Source: Trifolium pratense
Lineage: Eukaryota > Streptophyta > Magnoliopsida > Fabales > Fabaceae
Length of the DNA: 64,000 bases
Assembly (NCBI RefSeq): GCF_020283565.1
Contig: NC_060063.1
Coordinates: forward strand, 24,792,777 to 24,856,776
Direction: 5' to 3'
Below the pieces are notes generated by a model. It made no database searches. It was not told the DNA's origin and saw only the letters and a list, made by a program, of their open reading frames with translations. The position numbers were made by a program, and so were the translations under genes. Positions 1,335-24,643 of this stretch are shown here, in pieces. Position 1 is the first letter of the stretch, and each line of letters begins with the position of its first letter.

Positions 1335-2070
1335 TGTAACGACCCAATTTTCATATTATTAATTTTTGTGTGTTAAAATATTTTATTAACTTAGAATTTT
1401 AATTAAGTTAATAACTTGAGTTATTTATCGAGTACTTTAGTTATTAAGCGAGTAGAGTGAGTTAACGTGTGATTGGGCCAAGCCAATTGGGCTTGAGGCC
1501 CAATGGGCCTTATGGACTAGTGGGGGCGCCCATATAGTCATGGGTAGAGAGAGAAAACACTCATTTTCTTTTGTTCTTAAGAGTTTAGAGAGAAGGAAGA
1601 GCATGGGTGAGCTAGGGCAAGAAGGAAAGTGAAGATCCAAGAGCAAATCTTCGAGTTTTCTTCGAATCCAGGTAAGAGAGTAGATTTCATATTCGTGGGT
1701 GATACGAGAAAGGGGAGAATGTCGATTTCTCCGTACCCGAACTTTCTCCACCCCATTTTCGTTTGGGTTTTTAGGTGATTTTCTTAAAGAAAATGATGGA
1801 GAATGTTCATAACATGTTTAATATACTTTTAACATGTAGTATGAACGAATTTGTGGGTTAAAATTGGGTATTTGTTATGTTTTGTTTTGAGTTGTTGTGT
1901 TCTTGAGCTTTTGAGCTAAAAATGGTAAATCTCTACTTTTTCGTAGTAAAAATGGTAGATCGGTGAAATGAACCGTCCTTTTGAGTCTATACATGTTGGT
2001 TACACGTGAAATCAAACTTATTTGGGATTTAGAACATCAAACTTGGATTTTTTGAGTAGATTTCTTTCCT

Positions 2071-2367
2071 CTGTGTTAGCAGGAGTCATCTGCATGATAG
2101 TAGGGGTTCTATGTGTTAGCAGGAGTCATCTGCATGATAGTAGGGGTCCTATGTGTTAGCAGGAGTCATCTGCATAATAGTAGGGGTTCTATGTGCTAGT
2201 AAGGGTTCTTGCATGATAGTAGGGGTTCTATGTGCTAGCAGGGGTTCTTGCATGATAGTAGGGGTTTTATGTGTTAGTAGGGGTATTACCTGAACTGTTA
2301 TTTGTAGTAGGGGTTCTCTGGTATAGTATGAGTTCTCTGTGTTAGCAGGGGTATTACCTGAACTGTT
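2071..2367 (+). repeat. 40-bp tandem array, three full units plus degenerate units
   Basis: Units read TGTGTTAGCAGGAGTCATCT and continue to ...GTAGGGGTTCTA. Three near-perfect copies are followed by shorter variants. Each can form a small hairpin: GCAG-GAGTCAT-CTGC (2079-2093) in full units, GCA-GGGGTTCT-TGC and CAGG-GGTATTA-CCTG in variants. The matching array in the 3' LTR (17876-18212) has four full units, and this alone explains the LTR length difference (2342 against 2382). Confidence 0.9.
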
Positions 2368-2490
2368 GTTTAATGGTTTTAAATGCTACTGATTGTTTAT
2401 AACCATGATTAATTTGTATTGTGATGAATTGTTGATTATATGTGTGGAATATAATTGTTGTTAATTGTGTTGAGGATGTTTGTTTAAATG

Positions 2491-2825
2491 TCAAAGAAGT
2501 ATATTAAGGTGTTAATTAACTTAATAAAGAAGGATATTAGAGTATGTTATTCTAATAAAGAAGTATATCGAATTATGTTATTCGATAAAGACGGATATTA
2601 AGGTATAGTGTTATCTTAATAAAGACGGAATGTTGGATAGTGTTCCACATTTATAAATGACGAGCTTAATGCTAATTAAAATGATTGTGAGTGAATTCAT
2701 GAAAAACATATACATGCATTCATGAATTGTTGTTGTATATTGGCTTGTCCAATAAAGACGGATATCGAACTATATTTGTTCGATAAAGACGAATATTAGA
2801 GGTGAGATACTCTAATAAAGACGAT
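2491..2825 (+). repeat. Array of about eight hairpins with changing but always paired stems
   Basis: Each unit is TAT-stem, short loop, complementary stem-ATA, then AAGAAGG or AAGACGG. Stem pairs are TATTAAG/CTTAATA (2502-2508, 2520-2526), TATTAGA/TCTAATA (2535-2541, 2551-2557), TATCGAAT/ATTCGATA (2566-2573, 2580-2587), TATTAAG/CTTAATA (2596-2602, 2615-2621), TATTGG/CCAATA (2738-2743, 2749-2754), TATCGAAC/GTTCGATA (2763-2770, 2778-2785) and TATTAGAG/CTCTAATA (2794-2801, 2810-2817). A weaker unit (AATGT/ACATT) lies near 2629-2650. The 3' arm runs into ATAAAG; where the preceding base is A this makes AATAAA. The array lies downstream of the presumed promoter, so it is probably transcribed. Confidence 0.85.
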
Positions 2826-3339
2826 GGTACCACATGCATTAGAGGTGTCTAGAGGATATAGCATGAATGTGAAGCATTAGATTGCATTAGGGATTATGTG
2901 TGCATTTTATGATAAATGATGTTTGACACATACTTGGTAAATGTTGATTGTTAATCCGTATGTGAGGAGCAGAGTCCGTCATGACTATAAAATGAACAAC
3001 GCAGGGTCCGTCATGACCATAATCTGAACAATGTATTTGTGGTGTTAGATTACATTAGGAACTTTATGTATATTCCTATTTGTGACTGAGTTATGTGATA
3101 TTTGTGGATGTTTTGGTATTGTCCGAGACGACGTGAAACTATATGTTTGGTGTACTTTGTGGATGATTGAATATGTAATAAATGAAGTGTATGCATGATA
3201 TATGAATATGCATGAATGATGGTGATGTATATGTATAATGTATGATTATGCATGTTTTTATGAAGAGGTGTTTAAGTACCATTTACTTACACTTGTATAT
3301 TTTGAGTATGTTGTCTAACTCTCTTTTATGTGTTATGTG

Positions 3340-3359
3340 CTGGACCGTTGGGGGTCCAG
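3340..3359 (+). other. 7-bp stem hairpin CTGGACC/GGTCCAG near the LTR end
   Basis: CTGGACC, six-base loop GTTGGG, GGTCCAG. The same 20-base hairpin occurs in the gag-only element LTRs (minus strand of 19061-19080 and its copy), where one pair is replaced by a G-U type pair and the loop changes, while length and position near the LTR end are kept. Confidence 0.7.
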
Positions 3360-3678
3360 ATTTACAGGTTTTGTGGTATTCGATGTCGAGTCGTCGGTGA
3401 AGCTCTGCTCTGATTGTGACACGGGAAAGGGTTGTATTTAGACTATAGGGTCTTTATGACTTTCGATATTTATTTGTAAAACTATACATTTTGATAAATG
3501 ATTATTCTGTATAAACACTGTTTTTACTAATTAATTACATTAGTATTATTTTGATTGAAGAGTGTAATGCTCGAACCATGACTTTTATAATAACAAAACT
3601 TTGATTTTCCGCCGTGTATTTAGAGAAAGATTTTATTAAAGGTAGAAATATAAAACTAATGGGTTTGGGTGTTACAAT

Positions 3679-3694
3679 TGGTATCAGAGCCCCG
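3679..3694 (+). other. Primer binding site, initiator tRNA-Met type
   Basis: TGGTATCAGAGCCCCG starts two bases after the 5' LTR end. TGGTATCAGAGC is the usual plant initiator-methionine tRNA primer complement, and it fixes the plus orientation of the element. Confidence 0.9.
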
Positions 3695-6625
3695 TTGTCT
3701 TCGGACTGTGTGGGTTATGTGTCGATCAGAGCAGGTCTGTGCAGTCAGACCAAGTGAGTGTTGTGCGTCAGTCGTGTTTGTCTAACAATATTGTTGTGTT
3801 TGTTCTGTGAAATCATTCATGTTGTTCGTTTAGGAACTATGAGTGATGTGAATTGGATTAATCGATCCATTGTTTTGTTGAGTAATGGTGTGAGTGCTAT
3901 ACTTCTATGTTTATAATAGTTGTATATGCTTAGAGTTTAACCTTTGTGTAGTTTAAACTTGGTTGATTGATGCTTATTTGCTAATTGTTGACGATCCGGC
4001 ATGATATAAAACTGCATGTGACGATCCGACATGATATAAAACTGCATGTGACGATCCGGCATGATATAAAACTGCATGTGGTAATGATTTGAAATAGTTT
4101 TAAAAGAGAAACTAATGTTATTTCTTGATGATGAAGATTTTGGTGAAAATATAGAGTTATTTTCTTTTGAATAAGTGAAAATTAAATTTTCAAGATAGTG
4201 AGAAGAGTAGGATGTTAATGAATCCTAGTGTGTGTTGTTATATGTTTGTTTATAACATGTGCTAGATGATTACTAGGAACTTGAATTGCTATGCGTTTTA
4301 TGAGTAAAAACATGAAGATCTCATAATCCTATGTTGTAATTGTGATGCATGATTTTAATTGTGCTTGCAAGTCTATAATGATGTTATATGCTTGATGTTT
4401 TGGATTTTGTGGATTAGTGAGTCGAGAAAACGAGAGTTTAGTGAGCGTAAGTTCAAAACCGTAGCAGAGCACCCAGATTTTTGGATGTGCTCGTTAGGCG
4501 AAGAATGAACCTCGCTGAGTCTCGCTAAGTCTTGCTAAGTCCTGTGAATGTTTTTGACTTGCCTTGCCGGGAACTCGCTAGCTTTTGCTAAGCGAGGGAG
4601 CCAGACAAGAAAATTATTTCGTTGACGTCTTGTTCTGAGTTGATTGAATGTGAGTATGAATTATTGCTATGCAATGTTCATTTTTCTTGTGTTGTTTTGA
4701 TTTCCTAACTTTGAGAAGTGAGGGAAGTATAGGTTACTTGAATGCTTGCATGAATTTGTGTTAGTGTTTAGGTATCGTTGGGTAGGCTTTGTCCCTTGTA
4801 TGCGACATGCGTGTAAACGATGTCGATACTAGTTTCTTCTTTTGGGAAGAATATGTTTAGAGACGATAGAACCGTTAGGTGTGAGCACCAGAAGTTATAG
4901 TGGAAGAGTGTAGGTGGGTTTGAGATAAGTGGGGGAGAAGGTTATGTCCCTCCGAGATGTTTCGAACGTGAGAAGATGAGATGAGTAGAGATGTTCTTGA
5001 AGTGGAATATTCAGGAAGTGGTGACGTTGTTCGAAGTGGAATGAATGGGCGCAACAAGTTGTGAGAAACTACTAGAAGGGAAGTTGTCAGACCAAGTGTT
5101 TCGCCGTGGGGCGTTAGTGAGATTGGTTAAGTGAGATGAAGAGTATTCGGAATGATTGGAAATCGTGTGTTGCACTAAAAGTATGGAGGCGTGTTTTGTG
5201 GACCAAGTTGAAGTACCTATTCGATTAGTGTGAGTCGAATATGTAGAAAAGGAAGTGATTAGGATTCTTGAGAGGATGATGATTTTGAAGTAAGTTGTCA
5301 TCCAAGTAGGTCGGATGTTGTAGCGGATGCTTGAGTAAGAAGTTTTAGGTGAGTCGTGCATATGGTAGTAGGTTGAATTGGTTGAACAATTTGGAGTTCT
5401 AAGTCTAGTGTGTGAAGTGATTCTCGGAAGAGATTTGAGGAGCTTAGAGAAAGAGATGTGAAGATTAGTGAACCGTTGGTGTTAATTAATCGAGGAAATT
5501 AAAGGAAGTAGGTTTTAAAATAGATGAGAATGGAATTGAGAAATATCATAATAGGATTGGTATGTTTGTTGAATCGTTGGAAGTAAGGATTGTATGAGTA
5601 GTCGAGTTTATTCGAAGATGGAAGTAGGATAACAATTCGAAAGATTTTGTGAGAGGCTTGCCGAAGAAAGGGTAATTGGATTTGGATAATGACCGGGCAA
5701 TTAGTGTCGCATGTTGAACGAGATCGTAGATTCTTGGAGGTTGAGATGAAGCTAAGTGAGTAGTAACGTTTTAGAATGATTAGAAATAAGAAAGTTAGCC
5801 GTTGAAGAACGTGTTGAGAAGGAGTATATGAGGTCATGTTGGAAGTGACTTGTGTTAAGTGAGAATTTGCGAAAAGGATTATCGCACATGTGAGTAGATG
5901 TCGTGTTTTAGCACTTATAGTAAGGAGTTGAAGGCGATGCCTAAGGTAAGTGTCGGAGAGCATTTTGTGTTGTCCAAAAGATAAGAGTGAGTAAGTATTT
6001 GCTAAGGAATTTGGATTCATGGAATGGAAGAGTCGGTAGAGACTAGTTTTGTTAGATGCATCGTGGATGTTGACGTAGTATGGTCACAATCGGTGACAAT
6101 GAAGTAAAAGATTTTAAATTGTTTCATCATGGATGATGGGACGGTAGTGATTTGGTGAATAAGAAACCGATGAGTGAATAAACGGAGAAGATTATGCTTG
6201 TTGCAATGCAAGATGATGAGGAACATTGATAAATGGATTATGGGCAAATTGAAGATGTCGTTTGGAATCAACGAGATAGAGGTTATGATTGTTTGGAGAA
6301 CCAATTTTAGGCGGTAGCCTAATTTTGAAGTAGCAAATTACTAAAAGATTAAGAAGTGGTATTGGAAATTGTTTGTGTTAAGGAATGCAAAGGTTGGTTA
6401 AGAGATTACTTGGGAGTAGAATAGTCGTAACGAGATTCGACTCAATGATTGGAGATATGTTAGAAAAGGAATTTGACGGTTAGAGACGGTAGTTTTTAGC
6501 ATGTGTCGAGGAAGATTTGAGAATGTGGGTCATCAAGTGATCGTTGGAATTGAATTATCGAGTGATATGTTTGGAATGAGATACGATATGAATAAGTGAT
6601 GTAACACGGTTAAGTGATTCATGAG
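3695..6625 (+). pseudogene. Decayed Gypsy gag-pol interior, left part
   Basis: No plus-strand frame of useful length survives. A reverse transcriptase landmark is recognisable near 5089-5140: RPSVSPWG, then after a frame change LVRLVK, matching the start of Gypsy RT (usual form RPSVSPWGAPVLLVKKKDG). Many stops and indels follow. The longest open frames here are on the minus strand (for example 5499-6020) and look like accidents of a purine-rich plus strand. The sequence resumes at 16736 after the SIRE insertion (TSD ATGAG at 6621-6625). Confidence 0.65.
3989..4078 (+). repeat. Three tandem 30-bp units downstream of the primer site
   Basis: Three head-to-tail copies of a 30-bp unit that begins TGACGATCCGGCATGATATA. 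The middle copy has CCGAC in place of CCGGC. They lie about 300 bp after the primer site, in what would be the untranslated leader. Confidence 0.9.
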
Positions 6626-7639
6626 TGTTGGCGTTGTATGGTTGGCCTCATTTTGCTAAAACATGTGAATCCTCTTGATGTGGAACTACGCGCTTCCACC
6701 ATCCAGTATAAGCAAGATGTTCGGTACAATGCTTCAACATTGGATACCACATCCAGTAGGCCGGGCCTGTGTATGTTGAGATCTCGCGCCTAAGTTCTAT
6801 TTATGGAATCCACAATAAATGGTCGTTTGTGATAAGGAGCGTTGTCACGCATAATTATTAATGGATCTCGTGATCAAGTGTTGCTTGTTAATCAGATCTT
6901 CAAGTTAAGGAAACAAAACATTTGAATTAAAGATTATTTCTTGAAAGGAACCATTAATCATGCTGAGCTATTGAAGCCTAAATTGAAGACCTAGCCTGAG
7001 CTCGTGAAGGTTATTTAAAGAAGGTTGACTCCATTGTTCAAACAACTGAAACCAGAATTGAGTCTTACAAAGCGTGAGTTTAGGTTTTAGTATTGTGTTT
7101 ATTGTGTTCTAAGTCTTGTGTTGATTTCCCACTAGACTAGGAACTGTGTGTTTGTGCATTGTAATATCTCTGGAGCTTCTAAGCAAGGAGATAGTGTGTG
7201 TATACCATTCCAAAGCTTTTAAGCACGGAAGTGGTGTGAGTGTTTTATGAAGTGTGTCTTCACATATTAAATCTAGTATTGTACGATCACAGTGGCTGTG
7301 GTCAAGAGGAGGTGAGCGGAGGTTCTCATACCTAGGTGTGTCTTAGGTAGGATATAACACGGGTGGTGATTAGGTGAGAAGTCATAAACGGGAGGTTTAT
7401 TGAGGGCTTCAAACTAATACTATCATAGTGGATTCACTCCTGGATTGGTATCCCCCAGAGTAGGCTTATGCTGAACTGGGTTAACAAATTACTGTGTTAA
7501 TTTACTTGCAGTATTGTTTAGTTTACTATTCCTTGTGTATGCGCTGTTGGATGTTGGATCATTGATTCACGCATTAAAAGTATACTATAGTGGTGAAGCG
7601 TTGAGTACAACATCTTAATACTAGTGTGCCAGAATTTCA
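6626..7639 (+). repeat. 5' LTR of SIRE-type element
   Basis: The 1014-bp LTR starts TGTTGGCGTTGTATGG and ends GTGTGCCAGAATTTCA. A TTATTTAAAG box near 7010 is a candidate TATA element, followed by the presumed R-U5 region. It reads the same as 15717-16730. Confidence 0.95.
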
Positions 7640-7641
7640 AT

Positions 7642-7653
7642 TGGCATCAGAGC
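7642..7653 (+). other. Primer binding site of SIRE-type element
   Basis: TGGCATCAGAGC begins two bases after the 5' LTR. It differs from the usual TGGTATCAGAGC at one position, a change that still allows G-U pairing with the primer tRNA. Confidence 0.85.
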
Positions 7654-7707
7654 AGGCACCCTGCTCGAAACTCAGGGTGAGCTTCAGGGACGGAAAATTC
7701 TGGTGAG

Positions 7708-10700
7708 ATGGACAAGGAAGGAGGAACGGTTTCTAAACCACCATTACTAACTGGGCCTGAGAACTATGACTACTGGAAAGCTAAGATGATGGTGTTTCTT
7801 AAATCCATTGATAGCAGAACATGGAAAGCTGTAGAAAATGGATGGGAACCCCCTATGGTCATTGATAAGGATGGAAAGGTAACAGGTGAAATCAAGCCTA
7901 ATAAAGACTATTCCAAAGACGAGGATGACCTAGCTCTGGGAAATTCAAAAGCCTTGAATGCCATATTCAATGGGGTGGACATCAACATGTTCAGACTTGT
8001 TAAACGATGCACTGTAGCCAAACAGGCGTGGGAAATACTCAGGAAAGCACATGAAGGAACCAACAAGGTAAAGCTGTCCAAACTTCAGATGCTTCGCACA
8101 AATTTTGAAAATCTGAGTATGAAGGAAGAAGAGACTATTCATGACTTTCACATGAATATTTTAGAATTTGCAAATTCATTTGATGCCCTGGGAGAACCCA
8201 TATCAGATGAAAAACTGGTGAGCAAAATTCTCAGATCTCTACCTAAGAGGTTTGACATGAAAGTAACAGCAATAGAAGAATCTCAGGATCTGGCCAACAT
8301 TCAAGTGGATGAACTAATAGGCTCACTTCAAACCTATGAGATGAGCATAAACCAAAGAAAAGAGAAGAAAAACAAAAGTTTGGCTTTTACTTCTAATACT
8401 ACAGAAGATGATGAGATAGATATGGAGAGTGATGAAAGTTTATCTGAAGCCATGGTGTTACTTGGTAGACAGTTCAATCGTATCATGAAGAGGATGGATA
8501 AAAGAAATAAATTCAATGGTCCAAACACCAAATCTGACTTCAACAATAAGTTCAATGGTCCAAGCACCAAATCTGACTCCAACAAACCTGTATCTACTCA
8601 AAGGAGGACCAGAAGTGATGACAAAGGTACTTCATCTAGAGGAGTTCAGTGTCATGAGTGCGAAGGATTTGGCCATATCAAATCTGAATGTCCTACTTTT
8701 CTGAAGAAGAAGAAGAGTCTTGCTGTTACTTGGTCAGATGAGGATGATTCAGAAGAAGATGAAAGTGAATCTGCTAAACTTGTCAATGCATTGACATGTG
8801 TCTGTGAATCTGATGCTGAATCATGCGATGAAACATCATATGAAGAACTGCTGGCTACCTATAAAGACTTATTCATCAGGAGCAATGAATTTTGCAAAGC
8901 CTTGGAAAAACAAAAGGAGACAAATTGTCAACTTCAGGCCGAGAAGAATGAATGTCTGGATATAATTAAGACTCTCAACAAAGAGATTGAAAAGCTGAAT
9001 GAAGACTTGGAGCATGCTAGAAAACAAGTTAGAGTTTTTGCATCAGGAGAAGAAAAGTTTCAAGCCATGCTGCTAAAACAAAGTGCTGGTAAGAAACCTA
9101 TTGGCTTTGATTACGAGATAGTGGATCAAGAAATGGGTTACAACAAAGCTACAATCACTACCCCCATTGATAAAACTTTTCCTGTTAGTGGTGGGCTACT
9201 ACCTCCTCATCCTCCCACACATCAGGGAACTGACACATGGTTAAAACCCAAGCAGCATGTCCAGACTAACTCGATGCCTCAACACCCGCCTCACCATCAA
9301 TACAACAGGACAAGATCTAGGACTAAAAGAAGGAATTGGAGGTGTCATTATTGTGGTAGGAAAGGGCACATTAGACCTTATTGCTACAAGCTGTACGGCT
9401 ATCCACAGAATTCAAGGCCATTTGAACCCAAATCTGAGAACGTGAATGTCAAGAAAGAATGGAAGAAGAAGGAAGATGGTGTAAGCTTGATAGCTCATAC
9501 ATCACTACGGGCATCATCTAGACAAGATTGGTATTTTGACAGTGGATGCTCTAGACACATGACTGGAGTGGAAGGGTATCTAGCCAACCTAAGGTCCTAT
9601 GCCACAAGCTTTGTAACATTTGGAGATGGAGCTAAGGGAGAAATAAAAGGAATTGGAAACCTAATTGATAATGGGTTACCAAACTTAGACAATGTTCTGT
9701 TAGTAAAAGGACTTACAGCAAATTTGATTAGCATCAGTCAACTATGTGACCAAGGCATGAAGGTGAACTTCACACAATCTGAATGTCTTGTTACAGATGA
9801 AGAAGGAAAACTGATAATGAAGGGAGTAAGGTCCAAAGATAATTGTTACTTGTGGGTGTCTGAAGAAGGAAATTATATGTCTACCTGCCTCATAAGCAAA
9901 AATGAGGAAGTCAAACTCTGGCATCAAAAGTTGGGTCATCTACACCTGAGAGGAATGAAAAAGGCCATAGCTGAAGAAGCAATCAGAGGATTACCCAAGC
10001 TAAAGATAGACGAAGGAACAATATGTGGAGAATGTCAGATAGGCAAACAAACCAAGGTGGCGCACCCAAGGCTTCAACATCATTCTACTACCAGAACACT
10101 TGAATTGTTACACATGGATTTGATGGGACCTATGCAGACTGAAAGTCTTGGAGGAAAAAGGTATGCTTTTGTTATGGTGGATGATTTCTCTAGATTTACA
10201 TGGATAGACTTCCTTAGAGAAAAATCAGATAGTTTTGAAACATTTAGAAACTTATGTGTACAACTTCAAAGAGAAAAGGGGTCTGTCATCATAAGGATCA
10301 GAAGTGATCATGGAAAGGAATTTGAGAATAGCAAATTCTATGATTTCTGTGCAGCAGAAGGTATCCAACATGAATTCTCTGCTCCCATAACACCACAACA
10401 AAATGGTATAGTAGAGAGAAAGAATAGAACCATTCAAGAGTCTGCTAGAGTAATGCTTCATGCCAAGGGTCTTCCATATCAGTTCTGGGCAGAGGCTATG
10501 AGTACAGCCTGCTACATACACAACCGTGTAACACTCAAAAAGGGAACATCTGCAACCTTGTATGAATTATGGAAGGGAAGAAAGCCAACTGTGAAACACT
10601 TTCACATTTTTGGGAGTAAATGCTACATTCTTGCTGACAGAGAACCAAGACGAAAACTTGATCCTAAAAGTGAAGAAGGTATATTTCTGGGATATTCCTT

Positions 10701-12570
10701 GAATAGCAGAGCCTACAGGGTCTATAACACAAAAACCAAAGTCATTATGGAAACGATCAATGTTGTGATTGATGATGCACCATCCACTCAACCATCGGAG
10801 GTGGAAACTGATGTTGAACCATCTCCTGACAACTCTGATGAGATGACACAAAGTGAAAAGTCTGAATTAAAAGGTGATGAATCTGATCAAGACTCTGCAC
10901 CTGCTCCAGCAAAAGCACCATCTATTAGGACACAGAAGAATCACCCTAAAAATCTAATCATAGGTGATCCAGACCAGGGCATTGCTACCAGAAGAAAGAT
11001 TGATGCTATCTCAAACACTTGTTTTGTATCAAAATTTGAGCCTAAAAACATAAAAGAGGCTCTTACTGATGAGTTCTGGATTGAAGCAATGCAAGAGGAA
11101 TTGAATCAATTCAAGAGAAATGAAGTCTGGGACCTTGTTCCAAGACCACATGGAGTAAATGTCATAGGCACTAAATGGATATACAAGAATAAGTCTGATG
11201 AGAAGGGTACAGTAACAAGGAATAAGGCAAGACTGGTAGCTCAAGGCTACACTCAGGTGGAGGGAATTGACTTTGATGAGACCTTTGCTCCCGTGGCAAG
11301 ACTAGAATCCATAAGGCTGCTTCTTGGTGTAGCTTGCATCCTCAAACTCAAACTCTACCAAATGGATGTCAAGAGCGCCTTTCTAAATGGGTATCTTCAT
11401 GAAGAAGTATTTGTTGAACAGCCCAAAGGTTTCATAGATCCAAATCATCCGGATCATGTCTACAAACTGAAAAAGGCTTTGTATGGCTTGAAACAAGCAC
11501 CAAGGGCTTGGTATGAAAGGTTAACTGAATTCCTGATTAACCAAGGATACAAGAAAGGTGGAAATGACAAGACCTTATTTGTCAAAGAAATGAATGGAAA
11601 CTTGCTGATAGCACAGATATATGTTGATGACATAGTCTTTGGAGGGATGGCGGAACCGATGGTCCAACACTTTGTAAGACAGATGCAGTCTGAATTTGAG
11701 ATGAGCTTGGTAGGAGAATTAACCTATTTTCTTGGATTACAGGTGAAACAGATGGAAGACACAATATTTGTGTCTCAAAGCAAGTATGCTAAGAATATCA
11801 TAAAGAAATTTGGCATGGAAAATGCTGCACACAAAAGAACACCTGCTGCCACACATCTAAAATTAACCAAGGATGAGAAAGGTGTAGATGTAGACCAAAG
11901 CCTGTATAGAAGCATGATAGGGAGCCTACTGTACCTCACAACAAGCAGGCCTGACATCACCTTTGCTGTTGGTGTATGTGCTAGGTACCAAGCTGAGCCA
12001 AAGATGAGCCATCTTACACAAGTAAAAAGAATCTTGAAGTATGTCAATGCAACCTCTGATTATGGAATAATGTATTCCCATACCAACAATGCTAGGTTGA
12101 TGGGATATTGTGATGCAGATTGGGCTGGATGTGCAGATGACAGAAAAAGTACCTCTGGAGGATGTTTTTATCTAGGAGAAAATCTTATCTCATGGTTTAG
12201 CAAGAAACAAAACTGTGTTTCTCTATCCACTGCAGAAGCTGAGTACATTGCAGCTGGGAGTAGTTGCTCTCAATTATTGTGGATGAAGCAGATGCTTAAG
12301 GAATACAATGTTGAACAGGATGCTCTAACATTGTACTGTGACAATTTAAGCGCCATAAATATTTCAAAAAATCCTATTCAGCACAGTAGAACAAAGCATA
12401 TTGACATTCGCCATCACTTCATCAGGGATTTGGTGGAAGAAAATATTGTGAAACTGGAGCATGTTGCAACTGAAGAACAGGTAGCTGATATTTTTACCAA
12501 AGCTTTAGATGCAAATCAGTTTGAAAGGCTTAGGGGCAAATTGGGGATTTGCCTATTTGAGGAATTATAG
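7708..12570 (+). CDS. Gag-Pol polyprotein of SIRE-type Copia element
   Basis: A single 1620-residue frame makes the capsid and all enzymes needed for copying and integration. Order: Gag with zinc knuckle CHECEGFGHIKSEC (315-328); a charged coiled-coil stretch (about 395-450); a second knuckle CHYCGRKGHIRPYC (546-559); aspartic protease with DSG at 611-613; GAG-pre-integrase LWHQKLGHLH; integrase with D804, D867 and E903 (D-35-E spacing between the last two); reverse transcriptase with D1220 in QMDVKSAF and YVDD at 1305-1308; and RNase H with D1469 in YCDADW and the ending KHIDIRHHFIRD. The ATG at 7708 lies 54 bases after the primer site. No stop, frameshift or missing catalytic residue was seen. 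It ends LFEEL-TAG in the same frame as the next coding region. Confidence 0.96.
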   Translation: MDKEGGTVSKPPLLTGPENYDYWKAKMMVFLKSIDSRTWKAVENGWEPPMVIDKDGKVTGEIKPNKDYSKDEDDLALGNSKALNAIFNGVDINMFRLVKRCTVAKQAWEILRKAHEGTNKVKLSKLQMLRTNFENLSMKEEETIHDFHMNILEFANSFDALGEPISDEKLVSKILRSLPKRFDMKVTAIEESQDLANIQVDELIGSLQTYEMSINQRKEKKNKSLAFTSNTTEDDEIDMESDESLSEAMVLLGRQFNRIMKRMDKRNKFNGPNTKSDFNNKFNGPSTKSDSNKPVSTQRRTRSDDKGTSSRGVQCHECEGFGHIKSECPTFLKKKKSLAVTWSDEDDSEEDESESAKLVNALTCVCESDAESCDETSYEELLATYKDLFIRSNEFCKALEKQKETNCQLQAEKNECLDIIKTLNKEIEKLNEDLEHARKQVRVFASGEEKFQAMLLKQSAGKKPIGFDYEIVDQEMGYNKATITTPIDKTFPVSGGLLPPHPPTHQGTDTWLKPKQHVQTNSMPQHPPHHQYNRTRSRTKRRNWRCHYCGRKGHIRPYCYKLYGYPQNSRPFEPKSENVNVKKEWKKKEDGVSLIAHTSLRASSRQDWYFDSGCSRHMTGVEGYLANLRSYATSFVTFGDGAKGEIKGIGNLIDNGLPNLDNVLLVKGLTANLISISQLCDQGMKVNFTQSECLVTDEEGKLIMKGVRSKDNCYLWVSEEGNYMSTCLISKNEEVKLWHQKLGHLHLRGMKKAIAEEAIRGLPKLKIDEGTICGECQIGKQTKVAHPRLQHHSTTRTLELLHMDLMGPMQTESLGGKRYAFVMVDDFSRFTWIDFLREKSDSFETFRNLCVQLQREKGSVIIRIRSDHGKEFENSKFYDFCAAEGIQHEFSAPITPQQNGIVERKNRTIQESARVMLHAKGLPYQFWAEAMSTACYIHNRVTLKKGTSATLYELWKGRKPTVKHFHIFGSKCYILADREPRRKLDPKSEEGIFLGYSLNSRAYRVYNTKTKVIMETINVVIDDAPSTQPSEVETDVEPSPDNSDEMTQSEKSELKGDESDQDSAPAPAKAPSIRTQKNHPKNLIIGDPDQGIATRRKIDAISNTCFVSKFEPKNIKEALTDEFWIEAMQEELNQFKRNEVWDLVPRPHGVNVIGTKWIYKNKSDEKGTVTRNKARLVAQGYTQVEGIDFDETFAPVARLESIRLLLGVACILKLKLYQMDVKSAFLNGYLHEEVFVEQPKGFIDPNHPDHVYKLKKALYGLKQAPRAWYERLTEFLINQGYKKGGNDKTLFVKEMNGNLLIAQIYVDDIVFGGMAEPMVQHFVRQMQSEFEMSLVGELTYFLGLQVKQMEDTIFVSQSKYAKNIIKKFGMENAAHKRTPAATHLKLTKDEKGVDVDQSLYRSMIGSLLYLTTSRPDITFAVGVCARYQAEPKMSHLTQVKRILKYVNATSDYGIMYSHTNNARLMGYCDADWAGCADDRKSTSGGCFYLGENLISWFSKKQNCVSLSTAEAEYIAAGSSCSQLLWMKQMLKEYNVEQDALTLYCDNLSAINISKNPIQHSRTKHIDIRHHFIRDLVEENIVKLEHVATEEQVADIFTKALDANQFERLRGKLGICLFEEL

Positions 12571-12576
12571 CAGTTA
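12568..12576 (+). promoter_or_regulatory. Readthrough-type stop codon context TAG-CAG-TTA
   Basis: The gag-pol stop is followed directly by CAG TTA, which fits UAG-CAR-YYA, the leaky-stop context known from tobacco mosaic virus. Stop suppression was reported as the expression route for the env-like frame of soybean SIRE1. The frame stays open for 811 further codons. Confidence 0.85.
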
Positions 12577-15006: not shown

Positions 15007-15704
15007 TTCTGATGTTTTCTCATTTGGATTTTATCTTTTTTTTGTTTTGCATGTCTGTGGGCTGAGCCCTGAATTTAGCACCTAGTGTGCATGGTTTGTA
15101 ATGTTTTGTCTGCACTTTATGTTCTGCTACTATCTGCACTGCGTTTGGATATTTTTTATGCAGTTCCCATTTTGTCTATTTTGTGGCTAAAAAGGGGGAG
15201 TAGTTATTGTATGCCATATTAGGTTGCTGAGGCTTGTATGTGCCACCAGATGCTGGATCATCTGAATAACCCTATGCATGAATTAAGGGGGAGTAACATG
15301 ATCCTGGTACTTGATTCTACCTTTGAGGGGGAGCAATATTTCCTGCTTAGCACACAATGTGCTACTGCATGTTGAAGCATCATCTGTTCCTGAGAATTTA
15401 TTTTTCTCAGCTTTGAGGGAATTTATTTTTCCCAGTGTTTCTTTTATGAGAATCTTATACTCTCTATTGGCAAAATTCCTGTGAGGCTCTTGTGCTTATC
15501 CTTCCGCTGTTGCATGCCTCTGAAGGTCTAAATTGATACATATTAAATATGCTATTTTTATATGAGGAGTTATTAAAACAAGCATGTTAAATTGATCTAC
15601 TTTACTTCATGACTGTGTGCCTACGTTGAGTTGAAGAAAGGTAGCTTGTGTATCTCTCTAGAAAGGTTGAAATAATCTTAGGATGTTTTAGCCAAAAAAT
15701 TGCC
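15007..15704 (+). other. SIRE 3' non-coding region with extra polypurine tracts
   Basis: About 700 bp between the env-like frame and the 3' LTR. It holds three additional polypurine tracts before the proper one: AAAAAGGGGGAG near 15188-15200, TTAAGGGGGAG near 15283-15293 and TTGAGGGGGAGC near 15323-15334. Repeated tracts are a known trait of Sirevirus elements. Confidence 0.75.
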
Positions 15705-15716
15705 AAAGGGGGAGAT
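15705..15716 (+). other. Polypurine tract of SIRE-type element
   Basis: AAAGGGGGAGAT lies directly before the TG of the 3' LTR. This is the position and composition of the plus-strand primer. Confidence 0.9.
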
Positions 15717-16730
15717 TGTTGGCGTTGTATGGTTGGCCTCATTTTGCTAAAACATGTGAATCCTCTTGATGTGGAACTACGCGCTTCCACCATCCAGTAT
15801 AAGCAAGATGTTCGGTACAATGCTTCAACATTGGATACCACATCCAGTAGGCCGGGCCTGTGTATGTTGAGATCTCGCGCCTAAGTTCTATTTATGGAAT
15901 CCACAATAAATGGTCGTTTGTGATAAGGAGCGTTGTCACGCATAATTATTAATGGATCTCGTGATCAAGTGTTGCTTGTTAATCAGATCTTCAAGTTAAG
16001 GAAACAAAACATTTGAATTAAAGATTATTTCTTGAAAGGAACCATTAATCATGCTGAGCTATTGAAGCCTAAATTGAAGACCTAGCCTGAGCTCGTGAAG
16101 GTTATTTAAAGAAGGTTGACTCCATTGTTCAAACAACTGAAACCAGAATTGAGTCTTACAAAGCGTGAGTTTAGGTTTTAGTATTGTGTTTATTGTGTTC
16201 TAAGTCTTGTGTTGATTTCCCACTAGACTAGGAACTGTGTGTTTGTGCATTGTAATATCTCTGGAGCTTCTAAGCAAGGAGATAGTGTGTGTATACCATT
16301 CCAAAGCTTTTAAGCACGGAAGTGGTGTGAGTGTTTTATGAAGTGTGTCTTCACATATTAAATCTAGTATTGTACGATCACAGTGGCTGTGGTCAAGAGG
16401 AGGTGAGCGGAGGTTCTCATACCTAGGTGTGTCTTAGGTAGGATATAACACGGGTGGTGATTAGGTGAGAAGTCATAAACGGGAGGTTTATTGAGGGCTT
16501 CAAACTAATACTATCATAGTGGATTCACTCCTGGATTGGTATCCCCCAGAGTAGGCTTATGCTGAACTGGGTTAACAAATTACTGTGTTAATTTACTTGC
16601 AGTATTGTTTAGTTTACTATTCCTTGTGTATGCGCTGTTGGATGTTGGATCATTGATTCACGCATTAAAAGTATACTATAGTGGTGAAGCGTTGAGTACA
16701 ACATCTTAATACTAGTGTGCCAGAATTTCA
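15717..16730 (+). repeat. 3' LTR of SIRE-type element
   Basis: 1014 bp, reading the same as 6626-7639. It is followed by the right copy of the TSD, ATGAG (16731-16735). Confidence 0.95.
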
Positions 16731-17139: not shown

Positions 17140-18657
17140 TGTAACGACCCAATTTTCATATTATTAATTTTTGTGTGTTAAAATATTTTATTAACGTAGA
17201 ATTTTAATTAAGTTAATAACTTGAGTTATTTATCGAGTACTTTAGTTATTAAGCGAGTAGAGTGAGTTAACGTGTGATTGGGCCAAGCCAATTGGGCTTG
17301 AGGCCCAATGGGCCTTATGGACTAGTGGGGGCGCCCATATAGTCATGGGTAGAGAGAGAAAACACTCATTTTCTTTTGTTCTTAAGAGTTTAGAGAGAAG
17401 GAAGAGCATGGGTGAGCTAGGGCAAGAAGGAAAGTGAAGATCCAAGAGCAAATCTTTGAGTTTTCTTCGAATTCAGGTAAGAGAGTATATTTCATATTCG
17501 TGGGTGATACGAGAAAGGGGAGAATGTCGATTTCTCCGTACCCGAACTTTCTCCACCCCATTTTCGTTTGGGTTTTTAGGTGATTTTCTTAAAGAAAATG
17601 ATGGAGAATGTTCATAACATGTTTAATATACTTTTAACATGTAGTATGAACGAATTTGTGGGTTAAAATTGGGTATTTGTTATGTTTTGTTTTGAGTTGT
17701 TGTGTTCTTGAGCTTTTGAGCTAAAAATGGTAAATCTCTACTTTTTCGTAGTAAAAATGGTAGATCGGTGAAATGAACCGTCCTTTTGAGTCTATACATG
17801 TTGGTTACACGTGAAATCAAACTTATTTGGGATTTAGAACATCAAACTTGGATTTTTTGAGTAGATTTCTTTCCTCTGTGTTAGCAGGAGTCATCTGCAT
17901 GATAGTAGGGGTTCTATGTGTTAGCAGGAGTCATCTGCATGATAGTAGGGGTTCTATGTGTTAGCAGGAGTCATCTGCATGATAGTAGGGGTCCTATGTG
18001 TTAGCAGGAGTCATCTGCATAATAGTAGGGGTTCTATGTGCTAGTAAGGGTTCTTGCATGATAGTAGGGGTTCTATGTGCTAGCAGGGGTTCTTGCATGA
18101 TAGTAGGGGTTTTATGTATTAGTAGGGGTATTACCTGAACTGTTATTTGTAGTAGGGGTTCTCTGGTATAGTATGAGTTCTCTGTGTTAGCAGGGGTATT
18201 ACCTGAACTGTTGTTTAATGGTTTTAAATGCTACTGATTGTTTATAACCATGATTAATTTGTATTGTGATGAATTGTTGATTATATGTGTGGAATATAAT
18301 TGTTGTTGATTGTGTTGAGGATGTTTGTTTAAATGTCAAAGAAGTATATTAAGGTGTTAATCAACTTAATAAAGAAGGATATTAGAGTATGTTATTCTAA
18401 TAAAGAAGTATATCGAATTATGTTATTCGATAAAGACGGATATTAAGGTATAGTGTTATCTTAATAAAGACGGAATGTTGGATAGTGTTCCACATTTATA
18501 AATGACGAGCTTAATGCTAATTAAAATGATTGTGAGTGAATTCATGAAAAACATATACATGCATTCATGAATTGTTGTTGTATATTGGCTTGTCCAATAA
18601 AGACGGATATCGAACTATATTTGTTCGATAAAGACGAATATTAGAGGTGAGATACTC

Positions 18658-20658
18658 TGTTACACCCCGAACTAACTACCCTTAAAAACGTGATCTTAAA
18701 AACTTTTTAAAGATAAGTAGCCGGAGCGCTACGGAAAACATTTTCAAAAACGATCGTGCACATGACACGAAACGTCGCAGCGGAAAACATTAAATAATGG
18801 ATTTTCAAAGCAATGAACAAAATAGTTCAAAAGATAAAGCATCTACATAAAACATAAGTTAAGATGTTCACATCGATATACGACGGAATACAAACGATCC
18901 CCGACTCGATGTTACAAACTACCAGAGCACTAATATACATCTCAACCAAACTAAACTTAACAAAACTATACAAAGGTAGCCTACACTAGCTCCTCACCAA
19001 AAGTGCTCCACACCAAAACGATCTACAGCTAAAGCTCGATCGAAACCACGACCTGAATACCTGAACCCCCAAAGGTCCAGCACATAACAATTAGGTAGAG
19101 AGTTAGTAAACATAATCACATACATACGAATATAGAAACGCACCTATATTCAACCTATCACGTATTACTAACTCACACACATGCCTCCATAAGCAATACA
19201 CCAAATAACACATACTCACAAATACACAACCAGATAGTTTCACGTCGTCTCGGACAACACACAGAACTCACATAACACATAACACATAATTGCACATTTA
19301 CTCAAATGCGACTAATGCCAAACATTCAATGTCATGCCAACCTAGACACGACTAATGCATGTGGTACCATCTTCTTTATCAAGGAACTTACCATTGATAT
19401 CCTTCTTTATTGGACAAGTCCAATATCCTTCTTTATCAGACGAATCTGATATCCCTAAATAATGCATGAGTTTATGAATGCCATGCATTTACCAAACATA
19501 TGATAATCACTTAGCACGAAGCTACCGCTCACTACATGGATAACATAATCCATTAAACTTCTTTATCAGACAAACTGATATTCTTCTTTATCGGACAACC
19601 CGATATACAAACATACATATACTTCTTTGACATTTTATATAAATGCCATTACACAACACAATTATTAAACATATAATAATTCCAAACCAAAACGAAACCA
19701 AATACATGGATACACACACTTTACAAACATCAGCAAAATTGCTGTCACTGAGGCCTTCGCTAAGCGAGGGCTTAGCGAGACTTGGCGAACCACACCAGTA
19801 AGTCACCTGCTCATGGCGAGCTTTGGCGAGCTTCAGCGAACCTGTTCGCTACAGCGAACTCTTGGTCGCTTAGCGAACTACACCAGAAAAATATCTGTTC
19901 TTGAGTTTCAATAAGGCGGTTTAACACTCAAATCCATCCAAAATACATCATAACATGTTATAAATGCATAATAAGTGATCAATCATGTATATACCATACA
20001 TATATACATGTATCAACAATCAAAAACACCAAAACACATCACACATACAAAATCATGTCAATTTCTTGCAAAATAAGCAAAGTTGCATAAACATGCAAAC
20101 TATCATCAAACATATACATATTCCCTCCTAGATGTTCATTAAGCATACTAAGATGAAAAGACATGTTTATGATAAAGAAATTTCACCCAAACCCCAAAGA
20201 AATTGGATGAGAGAGTTTAGGAATGGAGGCTAGACACCTCCCCTCTCTTGGATCACCCAAGCTTATGCTTAACCACTCTCACCTTAGATTGAATGATGAT
20301 TCTTGGCCTCTAAATCTCTTCTCCTTGCTCGTGTTCTTCTCCTTGCTCTCCTAGCCAAAACCCTAGCTTAGCTTTCTCTCTTGCTAACTTCTAACTTCTC
20401 ATGAAAAGTGAATTGTGAGACTATTCATGGTTTTGACTTGCTACTTATACTACTTCCTAATTCTCTTGGTTCAAGCCCAACTTGCCTAAGCCCACTAAGC
20501 TCAAACACACGCCCAAGCCCACTAACACGACAAAGGTTTCGCTCACACACTTATGTTCGCGATAAATAATTATACGTCGCGTAAATAAATATTTAACACT
20601 AACCCAAAATATATGCAAATATATAAAATATCGATTTACTAAAAATCGGGTCGTTACA
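18658..20658 (-). repeat. 3' LTR of gag-only element
   Basis: 2001 bp. It carries five hairpin units at 19377-19605 (stems such as TATTGGAC/GTCCAATA at 19408-19415 and 19418-19425; TATCAGA/TCTGATA; TATCAG/CTGATA; TATCGG/CCGATA). It also has the CTGGACC-type hairpin at 19061-19080 and, on the minus strand, a GTATAAGTAG promoter-like box near 20445. Next to it is an inverted GCGAAGCTCGCC-like cluster (19755-19880) of repeated TTAGCGA/TCGCTAAG words. Confidence 0.9.
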
Positions 20659-20672
20659 ACTCTACCCCCCTT
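20659..20672 (-). other. Polypurine tract of gag-only element
   Basis: On the minus strand AAGGGGGGTAGAGT stands directly before the 3' LTR, fixing the minus orientation. Confidence 0.85.
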
Positions 20673-20724
20673 AAAAGAATTTCGCCCTCGAAATTTCCTA
20701 AGAGATAAAACAGAGAACGAACCC

Positions 20725-21663
20725 TCAACGCAGCATCTTCGGTTTCTTGCATGCCGGACTCTTGTGACCTTCCTCGCCACAATTGAAACAAAACACTTTC
20801 ACCCGACAAGCATCGGCCTTGTGCCCAAACTGTCCACAATTGAAACACTTGTCGCTTTTCCTCGGGCAATCATATGACATATGACCCCGCTCTCCACATT
20901 TGTAACAACTTCCACTTCCTTGCTTCTTCTTTCCACTTCCATTGCCCTTGTTCTCATACGGCTTACCACGATCCAAACCTTTTCCTTTCCTATCATTCAG
21001 AACCTTATAGTAGTTGGTCTTGGCTTTGCTATCTTCATCACAAATCCTTGCCTTGGTCATAAGGGTCGGAAAATCCCTGATTTCAGAAAATCCAATCAAA
21101 AGCTTGATATCCGGACGAAGTCCACTCTCGAACTTGACACACTTATCCTCTTCGGCTCCCACCGTGTTGTAGTGTGGACTGAACACACACAAAGCTTCAA
21201 ACTTAGCCGAATACTCGGCGACCGATAAATTTCCTTGCTTGAGCTCCATGAACTCGATCACTTTCTTATTCTTCACATCAGCCGGAAAGTACTTCCTTAA
21301 AAATTCCCTTTTGAAAGTTTCCCAAACGATGGCAACACCGTCCACTCCTATCCTGAGTCTCACATTCCTCCACCAAACGATTGCCTCCTCTCTAAGAGCA
21401 TAAGTTCCCAAAGTAGTCTTGTTCTCCTCAGAACAACTCATTGCTTCAAAGATGATCTCAACCTCATCTAACCACTTGATAGCTCCCTCCGGGTTATAGC
21501 CCCCGGTAAACAGAGTCGGTTTATGCGACATAAACCTTTCCAATCTTTTCTCACTATCCCTTTCCGGGTCATTATCCCTTACCACCAATGTAGTCAAAGC
21601 AGTCAAAGCTCGTGCAATCTGAGCGTTGGTCCTAGCAGCAGCCATGATTCCTGAACGAATCAC
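20725..21663 (-). CDS. Gag protein with three zinc knuckles (no pol)
   Basis: A 312-residue capsid/nucleocapsid protein. The likely start is MAAARTNAQIARAL, six codons after the first ATG. The Gypsy-type retrotransposon gag domain spans about 60-190 (FTGGYNPEGAIKWLDEVE, WETFKREFLRKYFPADVK, LKQGNLSVAEYSAKFEAL). Three CCHC knuckles lie at 253-266 (CYKCGERGHMSYDC), 273-286 (CFNCGQFGHKADAC) and 292-305 (CFNCGEEGHKSPAC). The frame stops seven residues after the third knuckle, where an autonomous relative would continue into protease. It is fully open although the element has no enzymes, which suggests selection for Gag function in trans or in cis, or simply youth. It probably packages its own RNA for copying by a helper Gypsy element. 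Confidence 0.93.
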   Translation of the reverse strand: MIRSGIMAAARTNAQIARALTALTTLVVRDNDPERDSEKRLERFMSHKPTLFTGGYNPEGAIKWLDEVEIIFEAMSCSEENKTTLGTYALREEAIVWWRNVRLRIGVDGVAIVWETFKREFLRKYFPADVKNKKVIEFMELKQGNLSVAEYSAKFEALCVFSPHYNTVGAEEDKCVKFESGLRPDIKLLIGFSEIRDFPTLMTKARICDEDSKAKTNYYKVLNDRKGKGLDRGKPYENKGNGSGKKKQGSGSCYKCGERGHMSYDCPRKSDKCFNCGQFGHKADACRVKVFCFNCGEEGHKSPACKKPKMLR

Positions 21664-21751
21664 AACTCGACGTTAGAATGTATTAACAGTGTACCCAACA
21701 CATGCTTCATACAAGAGAAAGAAAATCCTAATGGCTCACATGAACCGACCT

Positions 21752-21763
21752 GCTCTGATACCA
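21752..21763 (-). other. Primer binding site of gag-only element
   Basis: TGGTATCAGAGC on the minus strand, five bases inside the 5' LTR boundary at 21769. It is the same primer type as in the Gypsy-type host element. Confidence 0.9.
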
Positions 21764-21768
21764 ACTAT

Positions 21769-23769
21769 TGTTACACCCCGAACTAACTACCCTTAAAAAC
21801 GTGATCTTAAAAACTTTTTAAAGATAAGTAGCCGGAGCGCTACGGAAAACATTTTCAAAAACGATCGTGCACATGACACGAAACGTCGCAGCGGAAAACA
21901 TTAAATAAAGGATTTTCAAAGCAATGAACAAAATAGTTCAAAAGATAAAGCATCTACATAAAACATAAGTTAAGATGTTCACATCGATATACGACGGAAT
22001 ACAAACGATCCCCGACTCGATGTTACAAACTACCAGAGCACTAATATACATCTCAACCAAACTAAACTTAACAAAACTATACAAAGGTAGCCTACACTAG
22101 CTCCTCACCAAAAGTGCTCCACACCAAAACGATCTACAGCTAAAGCTCGATCGAAACCACGACCTGAATACCTGAACCCCCAAAGGTCCAGCACATAACA
22201 ATTAGGTAGAGAGTTAGTAAACATAATCACATACATACGAATATAGAAACGCACCTATATTCAACCTATCACGTATTACTAACTCACACACATGCCTCCA
22301 TAAGCAATACACCAAATAACACATACTCACAAATACACAACCAGATAGTTTCACGTCGTCTCGGACAACACACAGAACTCACATAACACATAACACATAA
22401 TTGCACATTTACTCAAATGCGACTAATGCCAAACATTCAATGTCATGCCAACCTAGACACGACTAATGCATGTGGTACCATCTTCTTTATCAAGGAACTT
22501 ACCATTGATATCCTTCTTTATTGGACAAGTCCAATATCCTTCTTTATCAGACGAATCTGATATCCCTAAATAATGCATGAGTTTATGAATGCCATGCATT
22601 TACCAAACATATGATAATCACTTAGCACGAAGCTACCGCTCACTACATGGATAACATAATCCATTAAACTTCTTTATCAGACAAACTGATATTCTTCTTT
22701 ATCGGACAACCCGATATACAAACATACATATACTTCTTTGACATTTTATATAAATGCCATTACACAACACAATTATTAAACATATAATAATTCCAAACCA
22801 AAACGAAACCAAATACATGGATACACACACTTTACAAACATCAGCAAAATTGCTGTCACTGAGGCCTTCGCTAAGCGAGGGCTTAGCGAGACTTGGCGAA
22901 CCACACCAGTAAGTCACCTGCTCATGGCGAGCTTTGGCGAGCTTCAGCGAACCTGTTCGCTACAGCGAACTCTTGGTCGCTTAGCGAACTACACCAGAAA
23001 AATATCTGTTCTTGAGTTTCAATAAGGCGGTTTAACACTCAAATCCATCCAAAATACATCATAACATGTTATAAATGCATAATAAGTGATCAATCATGTA
23101 TATACCATACATATATACATGTATCAACAATCAAAAACACCAAAACACATCACACATACAAAATCATGTCAATTTCTTGCAAAATAAGCAAAGTTGCATA
23201 AACATGCAAACTATCATCAAACATATACATATTCCCTCCTAGATGTTCATTAAGCATACTAAGATGAAAAGACATGTTTATGATAAAGAAATTTCACCCA
23301 AACCCCAAAGAAATTGGATGAGAGAGTTTAGGAATGGAGGCTAGACACCTCCCCTCTCTTGGATCACCCAAGCTTATGCTTAACCACTCTCACCTTAGAT
23401 TGAATGATGATTCTTGGCCTCTAAATCTCTTCTCCTTGCTCGTGTTCTTCTCCTTGCTCTCCTAGCCAAAACCCTAGCTTAGCTTTCTCTCTTGCTAACT
23501 TCTAACTTCTCATGAAAAGTGAATTGTGAGACTATTCATGGTTTTGACTTGCTACTTATACTACTTCCTAATTCTCTTGGTTCAAGCCCAACTTGCCTAA
23601 GCCCACTAAGCTCAAACACACGCCCAAGCCCACTAACACGACAAAGGTTTCGCTCACACACTTATGTTCGCGATAAATAATTATACGTCGCGTAAATAAA
23701 TATTTAACACTAACCCAAAATATATGCAAATATATAAAATATCGATTTACTAAAAATCGGGTCGTTACA
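21769..23769 (-). repeat. 5' LTR of gag-only element
   Basis: 2001 bp, practically the same as 18658-20658 including the hairpin array (about 22488-22716 in this copy). Open frames read in both copies, such as the duplicated 72-residue frame, are LTR sequence and not genes. Confidence 0.92.
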
Positions 23770-24643
23770 TACTCTAATAAAGACGATGGTACCACATGCA
23801 TTAGAGGTGTCTAGAGGATATAGCATGAATGTGAAGCATTAGATTGCATTAGGGATTATGTGTGCATTTTATGATAAATGATGTTTGACACATACTTGGT
23901 AAATGTTGATTGTTAATCCGTATGTGAGGAGCAGAGTCCGTCATGACTATAAAATGAACAACGCAGGGTCCGTCATGACCATAATCTGAACAATGTATTT
24001 GTGGTGTTAGATTACATTAGGAACTTTATGTATATTCCTATTTGTGACTGAGTTATGTGATATTTGTGGATGTTTTGGTATTGTCCGAGACGACGTGAAA
24101 CTATATGTTTGGTGTACTTTGTGGATGATTGAATATGTAATAAATGAAGTGTATGCATGATATATGAATATGCATGAATGATGGTGATGTATATGTATAA
24201 TGTATGATTATGCATGTTTTTATGAAGAGGTGTTTAAGTACCATTTACTTACACTTGTATATTTTGAGTATGTTGTCTAACTCTCTTTTATGTGTTATGT
24301 GCTGGACCGTTGGGGGTCCAGATTTACAGGTTTTGTGGTATTCGATGTCGAGTCGTCGGTGAAGCTCTGCTCTGATTGTGACACGGGAAAGGGTTGTATT
24401 TAGACTATAGGGTCTTTATGACTTTCGATATTTATTTGTAAAACTATACATTTTGATAAATGATTATTCTGTATAAACACTGTTTTTACTAATTAATTAC
24501 ATTAGTATTATTTTGATTGAAGAGTGTAATGCTCGAACCATGACTTTTATAATAACAAAACTTTGATTTTCCGCCGCGTATTTAGAGAAAGATTTTATTA
24601 AAGGTAGAAATATAAAACTAATGGGTTTGGGTGTTACACTGAC

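Follow-up and report, generated by a model that had tools for sequence, protein, structure and literature searches.

A covarying hairpin array in the LTRs of a clover Ty3/gypsy group as a possible cis-acting signal of unspliced genomic RNA

An array of small hairpins is carried by the LTRs of two elements, E1 and E2, in a stretch of Trifolium pratense DNA of 64,000 nucleotides (the window, to which all coordinates refer). Judged from its genomic copies, pairing and not stem sequence is kept in the lineages that continued transposing, with free decay after insertion. The array may be a cis-acting RNA structure of a clover Ty3/gypsy group, serving as a signal of unspliced genomic RNA in packaging or export. 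This is our preferred reading, to which we give somewhat less than even confidence.

In E1, seven perfect hairpins with the frame TAT-x-loop-x'-ATAAAGA lie at 2502-2817 on the forward strand, with stems of 6-8 bp, loops of 5-12 nt and AAGA after each. Units 1 (2502..2526), 2 (2535..2557) and 4 (2596..2621) have 7-bp stems; some subfamilies inherit a G.U form of unit 2, and unit 4, which reaches 10 bp with one G.U, has an inherited U.G in a diverged group of arrays, the L268 group. The stems of units 3 (2566..2587), 7 (2763..2785) and 8 (2794..2817) are 8 bp long, with two inherited compensatory pairs in unit 7 and one in unit 8. Unit 6 (2738..2754) has a 6-bp stem, which is 7 bp in another subfamily. 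The weak unit 5 (2630..2650; ATGT(T)GGA / TCCACAT) is a 7-bp hairpin with a bulge. The seven clear units and one weak unit of the original prediction are therefore all present. A hairpin of 10 bp at 2694..2728 (AATTCATGAA / TTCATGAATT), which separates the array halves, had been overlooked. The second copy of the array, in the E1 3' LTR (18347..18657, forward strand), extends as far as the E2 insertion, which cuts its unit 8.

The E2 arrays lie on the reverse strand. In the 5' LTR (22488..22716), five units occur at 22716, 22691, 22562, 22536 and 22510, together with homologues of the weak unit (22647-22664), here a perfect 6-bp hairpin, and of the long hairpin (22572-22600), with changed stem letters. 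The five units are repeated in the 3' LTR at 19605-19399 (array 19377..19605). It had been claimed that this otherwise diverged LTR holds five further units, and this proved correct; one of the stems proposed for them, TATTGGAC/GTCCAATA, was wrong, as it would leave a 2-nt loop, and the actual stem is 7 bp with the loop CTTG. The units of both arrays are joined by short purine-rich linkers, and the loops are not conserved. No open frame of at least 150 aa runs across the array, and a coding reason for it was rejected on this ground.

Both elements possess an LTR, a primer site and a polypurine tract, and neither shows pol. The E1 5' LTR (1335..3676) has the ends TGTAACG...GTTACA, with the 5-bp TSD CTGAC on either side of the element. 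The 3' LTR (17140..24638) is interrupted by E2, and the primer binding site TGGTATCAGAGC (3679..3690, all three on the forward strand) is presumably of the tRNA-Met type. The E1 LTRs differ by 8 mismatches in 2337. E2 (18658..23769, reverse strand) is a gag-only element with LTRs at 18658-20658 and 21769-23769, which differ at 1 of 2001 aligned bases; E2 is therefore young. The LTRs of E1 and E2 are homologous, with blocks of 59-77% identity. The sole long open frame between the E2 LTRs is gag (20725..21645, reverse strand; 306 aa, Retrotrans_gag plus zinc knuckles). It is 96-99% identical to Trifolium pratense proteins over 33-45% of its length and 98% identical to a metagenome protein in a full-length match, and no relative was found among viral contigs. 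A tblastn search with two pieces of a gag-pol relative, gag and RT, found nothing in E1.

Several other features of these elements were observed. The TSD of E2, TACTC, at 18653-18657 and 23770-23774, places the insertion inside hairpin unit 8 of the E1 3' LTR; a weak preference of plant LTR elements for palindromes has been published, as far as the accessible part of that source goes (PMC6911290). The E1 LTRs contain a 40-bp tandem repeat, with 5.3 copies in one (2072-2281) and 6.3 in the other (17877-18126). A Copia element is nested in the E1 body at about 6623-16730; its long open gag-pol frame (7681-12570) is followed by a second open frame of 811 aa (12571-15006). In public records, Trifolium repens Gag-like proteins bear the name 'cleavage and polyadenylation specificity factor subunit', apparently a misannotation.

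The arrays exceed chance expectation by several measures. All of their ATAAAGA sites (7/7 in E1, 5/5 in E2) have a perfect stem of 6 bp or longer, compared with 28 of 1815 such sites in 260 unrelated stretches. Elsewhere in the window, 2 sites have a stem (44672 and 60217) and 23 have none, one of the latter being the severed half of the last unit. In 1000 dinucleotide shuffles, the hairpin count had a mean of 1.28 and a maximum of 6 for E1 (observed 7), and a mean of 0.73 and a maximum of 5 for E2 (observed 6). Of all 340-nt segments, the three densest, with 7 hairpins, coincide with the arrays; density by itself does not single them out, however, as six segments away from the arrays have 6. 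Three such hairpins within 300 nt were found in none of the 260 loci, and the pattern matches from viral and genome contigs are therefore taken as chance. A known Rfam RNA was rejected as an explanation, with 0 matches at or above the gathering threshold in 1300-24700. Precursors of the miRNA type were also rejected, because stems of 6-8 bp are too short.

RNA folding gave z = -5.4 for E1 and -2.1 for E2, where 5 of 200 shuffles were as good. When the 341-nt E1 stretch is folded, the best structure contains 4 of 7 units, namely 1, 3, 4 and 7, with pair probabilities of 0.78-0.96; units 2 and 8, which have common stem letters, are joined to one another, and neither unit 6 nor the long hairpin appears. 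The best E2 fold contains units a, b and e (3 of 5) and the weak one, without c, d and the long hairpin.

The variation between units is itself matched between the arms. In the 12 distinct units every 5' arm reads TAT-Y-R-R, and 7 of the 8 possible combinations are present, each with its own complement. The stems had been said to vary between units, which is correct in general, except that units 1 and 4 share one stem. All 36 variable pairs are Watson-Crick, compared with a mean of 18.3 after shuffling, and this was equalled in none of 200,000 arm shuffles; when distinct stem classes are permuted, 1 of 5040 permutations matches the observed pairing. The statement that x' is always the exact complement accordingly applies to the window units, not to every copy, since inherited G.U pairs and single-copy mismatches occur elsewhere. 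G.U is absent from the perfect stems of both window elements. At stem positions 4-6 the variants differ by transitions only, a pattern that passage through G.U would give, and transitions are the commonest mutations anyway.

Genomic copies were compared by means of a tree. All copies come from one genome, that of the window, and are near neighbours of three query arrays. The best 40 were scored out of 1571, 1191, 2293 and 1124 candidates for four array queries, and close relatives are therefore over-represented. The E1-type sample holds 37 of the best 40 plus the window 5' copy (the window 3' copy and C2:47786371 were left out), the L268 sample 20 of the best 40 plus L268, and the E2-type sample 20 of the best 40 plus the window copy and L272. 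The alignment comprised the window copy, 37 further E1-type arrays and 21 arrays of the L268 group. Collapsing duplicates reduced 38 rows to 35 for the E1-type set, where L268 was dropped, and 59 to 56 for the combined tree; near-duplicates remain as LTR pairs of one element. Units 1-3, which the L268 group lacks, were masked for that group, and the long hairpin was left out of the tree counts because rows were misaligned there. The tree was built from non-stem columns only, and changes were placed by parsimony on this one approximate tree, with no handling of branch support. Internal branches represent changes that passed through transposition, and terminal branches represent mostly decay after insertion.

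Covariation across genomic copies had been named beforehand as the check that could refute the claim that pairing is kept while sequence changes, and in a home-made covariation test the claim passed. On the internal branches of the 56 distinct arrays, all nine stem-pair changes keep pairing. Three are compensatory double changes, two in unit 7 (positions 6 and 8) and one in unit 8 (position 4), all on two branches, and six lead to or from G.U. The nine fall on seven pairs and six branches, three of them at the pair in position 7 of unit 2. Of the 28 changes on terminal branches only 12 keep pairing (11 to G.U, 1 from G.U) and 16 break it (10 to A.C, 6 other); the comparison with the internal branches gives a Fisher value of 0.005. 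When the changes of each branch were redistributed at random over its stem columns, zero breaks occurred in 1 of 20,000 runs, and three or more doubles likewise in 1 of 20,000. The E1-type copies alone gave a similar result, with pairing kept in 8/8 internal and 11/24 terminal changes; under the null, zero breaks were seen in 0 and the doubles in 4 of 20,000 runs. Two copies, L297 and L310, have common changes although the tree separates them, and a part of the 'terminal' changes may therefore be inherited ones. Among the 22 E2-type arrays, the stem changes consist of two wobbles only, in the single copies L272 and L331.

Rates of change show the same division. On internal branches, 12 changes fall in stem columns and 33.5 in the loop and linker columns of the same units (104 columns each), while the terminal branches have 28 and 30.5; the stem/loop contrast between the two kinds of branch gives a Fisher value of 0.026. 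The value is 0.001 when the comparison is made with all 225 non-stem columns, an indel-rich spacer among them. The contrast between internal and terminal branches points to selection on the element while it transposes, and not on the inserted copy, which we consider the simplest reading.

Selection is not required if the pairing has a mutational origin, in which one arm serves as template for the other through intramolecular template switching in reverse transcription or replication. Such correction of quasi-palindromes is known to occur, and it would account for window units that are perfectly Watson-Crick. Moreover, the new 5' arm of unit 8 in L288/L289 opens with letters found in unit 7 of a different subfamily, which may reflect exchange between units. 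Arm copying would, however, erase wobbles, yet four wobble states are inherited. Mismatches are also retained in terminal copies, and it is only on internal branches that stem columns change more slowly than those of loops and linkers. An origin by mutation alone is therefore distinctly improbable.

The wobbles also bear on which molecule carries the structure. Among inherited single-sided states, read in the sense orientation, G.U is found at four pairs and A.C at none, compared with 11 changes to G.U and 10 to A.C on terminal branches. Based on these four wobbles, the bias toward sense RNA gives 0.06 in a one-sided sign test and 0.12 in a Fisher comparison with the terminal branches. Sense RNA is thus favoured over double-stranded DNA or the complementary strand, but this is suggestive only. 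One A.C state, at position 5 of unit 7, is seen in four copies (L296, L315, L316 and L345) which are apart on the tree. This position lies at a CG, and the state may be recurrent decay; if some of the four copies have it by descent, one A.C was inherited.

The main alternative at the level of DNA is a set of palindromic cis-regulatory elements, bound by dimeric host factors or extruded as cruciforms. Intron-borne enhancers exist, and the whole-array RNA folds that leave some units unformed would suit such elements. A protein dimer reads each half-site, so compensatory change is not predicted, and the inheritance of G.U at four pairs and of A.C at none also speaks against them. The nearest precedent is the RM-box palindromes of Sirevirus LTRs, which the accessible portions of the sources describe as transcriptional elements (PMC2829016; Bousios 2016 via PMC10760457). 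Both systems are clusters of short palindromes in a plant LTR, at high copy number, kept across a diverse lineage. As described there, the palindromes of Sireviruses precede the TATA box and have a common CGG-CCG core that is mostly fixed among near-identical copies. The clover array lies downstream of a TATA-like box, in a putative leader intron, and is AT-rich, with AAGA linkers and TAT-Y-R-R stems that differ and covary. In addition, Sireviruses belong to Ty1/copia and the clover array to a Ty3/gypsy group. Regulatory DNA of this kind is quite unlikely to explain the array.

TATA-like boxes, assigned by sequence and position, are found at LTR position about 200-210, in E1 as CATATAGTC (1531..1543, forward strand) and in E2 as GTAGTATAAGTAG (23552..23564, reverse strand); the 13 bases are identical in E2 and in L277, a locus with a homologous LTR, and different in E1. 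The arrays start about 971 bp (E1) and 836 bp (E2) downstream of these boxes. The original prediction, which put the array downstream of the likely promoter, therefore holds by position, relative to this putative promoter. Putative splice donors follow near LTR position 340-380: CAG|GTAAGA in E1 (1669..1677, forward strand) and AAG|GTGAGA in E2 (23388..23396, reverse strand), with GTATGA in L268 and GTAAGA in L277 at the homologous place. Words of the form GT[AG][AT]G abound in these LTRs, with 22 in the stretch of E1 and 28 in that of E2, and the argument for a donor would lie in the place kept in four diverged groups, not in the word itself. Putative acceptors are TTCGTTTAG|GAACT in E1 (3825..3841, forward strand) and TTCGTTCAG|GAATC with the gag ATG in E2 (21643..21659, reverse strand). 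The acceptor motif TTCGTTYAG stands directly 5' of the gag ATG in E2, L272 and L360, and in the same layout it adjoins an ATG on the 5' side in E1.

It can be seen that the array and the primer binding site fall between the donor and acceptor motifs. This interval contains 84 ATGs in E1 and 62 in E2, compared with one in the putative first exon of each element. Translation of Gag by scanning would therefore need the interval removed, and we infer that the array lies inside a leader intron. This argument does not extend to the 3' LTR, in which the array is also found.

Another reading takes the units for poly(A) hairpins as in retroviruses, in which the AATAAA at the stem base would be a masked polyadenylation signal. 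The resemblance had been noted for the 3' arms and is based on AATAAA at the base of 5 of 7 E1 units. Only 1 of 5 E2 units has it, and GATAAA stands there in 2/7 E1 and 4/5 E2 units, so AATAAA is not kept; the frame itself is absent from L277. AATAAA arises only where stem position 4 is T-A, and this position covaries, which leaves the poly(A) reading unsupported and scarcely probable at all.

Relatives of the array are found beyond the window. Of 22 random 10-kb stretches of C1, two contained arrays with the same frame (L268 and L272), and a third was L277, with its homologous LTR. At the place of the array L277 shows six hairpins with stems of 5 bp or more; their letters differ and the AAAGA linker is missing. 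Mononucleotide shuffles gave a mean of 1.6 for these six, and 1 of 1000 was as high; for its three stems of at least 6 bp the mean was 0.53, and 10 of 1000 were as high. Among its best 40 relatives of 1124, all are 99-100% identical, and many occur in pairs about 6.7 kb apart. A 30-bp repeat 3' of the E1 primer site (3989-4080; GGCATGATATAAAACTG) resembles pieces inside the L277 array (minus strand, about 1910-1820).

Coding pieces of the L277 family were obtained as three separate pieces between one such pair of relatives, and so from one member. They are, in order, L360 with gag and zinc knuckles, L361 with RT and RNaseH, and L362 with SH3_Tf2-1. The Ty3/gypsy order of gag, RT-RNaseH and integrase end is therefore present in this member, although the integrase-core match of L362 was weak and below the cut-off. 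No chromodomain was detected in L362 by Pfam at E 0.01; from the look of the protein end the family may be Tekay/Del-like. The Gag of this family is 73% identical to E2 Gag over 300 aa. Within one genome, hairpin arrays in the same interval are thus carried by a gag-pol family, by the gag-only E2, and by E1 without a gag or RT match. The listed members (best 40 each) of three of the four array families are 98-100% identical; given also the high candidate counts, the families look abundant and recent activity is likely.

These observations suggest a role for the array in marking the genome. Five to eight small hairpins would act in the sense RNA. If the interval from donor to acceptor is a leader intron, the array would be lost from the spliced gag mRNA, and the unspliced RNA alone would keep it, with the primer site, at the 5' end. 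It would then mark the unspliced RNA as the genome, chiefly through Gag binding for packaging, and several zinc-knuckle Gags would sit on the tandem hairpins and linkers. Elements without proteins would keep the array because recognition in trans is needed. Features that have to be recognised in trans are retained by protein-less elements, so the simplest view of the array is a cis signal of genomic RNA. We place packaging by Gag first; it is possible and fits the intron-like placement, although taken alone it is held more tentatively than the signal as such.

Export is the second choice. In this case the hairpins would form a nuclear export element that recruits export factors for intron-retaining genomic RNA, as in mouse IAP and MusD. 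The argument from placement is the same as for packaging, and the array would be in the 3' end of the transcript too. On the other side, no sequence motif beyond purine linkers was seen, and L277 has hairpins but no AAAGA linker. Structured export elements have been described for mouse LTR elements, and plant CAR-like motifs are treated as an open question in the accessible part of PMC12786077. Export taken by itself appears unlikely.

Packaging by Gag has a model in the retroviral Psi leader, where hairpins between the splice donor and gag are absent from spliced RNA and Gag binds the RNA via its zinc knuckles. The likeness would lie in the placement of the clover hairpins between putative splice motifs. 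In contrast to Psi, the clover array consists of tandem similar hairpins, lies 800 nt or more from the putative start and has no loop motif. It is also located inside the LTR, and hence at the 3' end as well. The copia elements BARE and EVADE, with separate gag and genomic RNAs, offer a precedent in that splicing separates the translated RNA from other pools, and parasitic BARE2 is packaged in trans, according to the portions available of PMC3735527 and PMC12786077. In those accounts the intron is in the coding region and the packaged BARE RNA comes from another promoter, unlike the inferred leader intron of clover, which holds an LTR array.

Non-autonomous elements of this group resemble the TR-GAG and LARD classes, E2 having gag only and E1 matching neither the gag nor the RT piece. 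These classes are defined by coding content, and we know of no common structural RNA signal for them. To our knowledge, little is understood of the selection of plant LTR retrotransposon RNA for particles or of the way in which protein-less elements hitch-hike. No covariation-supported RNA signal in a plant LTR was reported in the literature searched, most subscription papers being outside its scope. A wider reading, which we regard as doubtful, is a modular recognition code in which tandem hairpins are read by shape and spacing and not by sequence, the intron placement labels unspliced RNA as the genome, and non-autonomous elements are sorted into particles via the same kind of array. Abundant families, some of them very young, offer a defined 330-nt candidate with predictions for each pair. 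Moreover, the contrast between internal and terminal branches is a cheap way to seek selected RNA structure in high-copy retrotransposons.

A separate hairpin was observed just 5' of the polypurine tract. It is of the AATTTCG-AGGG-CGAAATT type in E2 (20660-20700, minus strand) and in the L277 family (end of L362). Sireviruses have an inverted repeat at the same place, as described in the accessible part of PMC2829016. The E1 variant of this hairpin (17100-17140) has a matching change in both arms.
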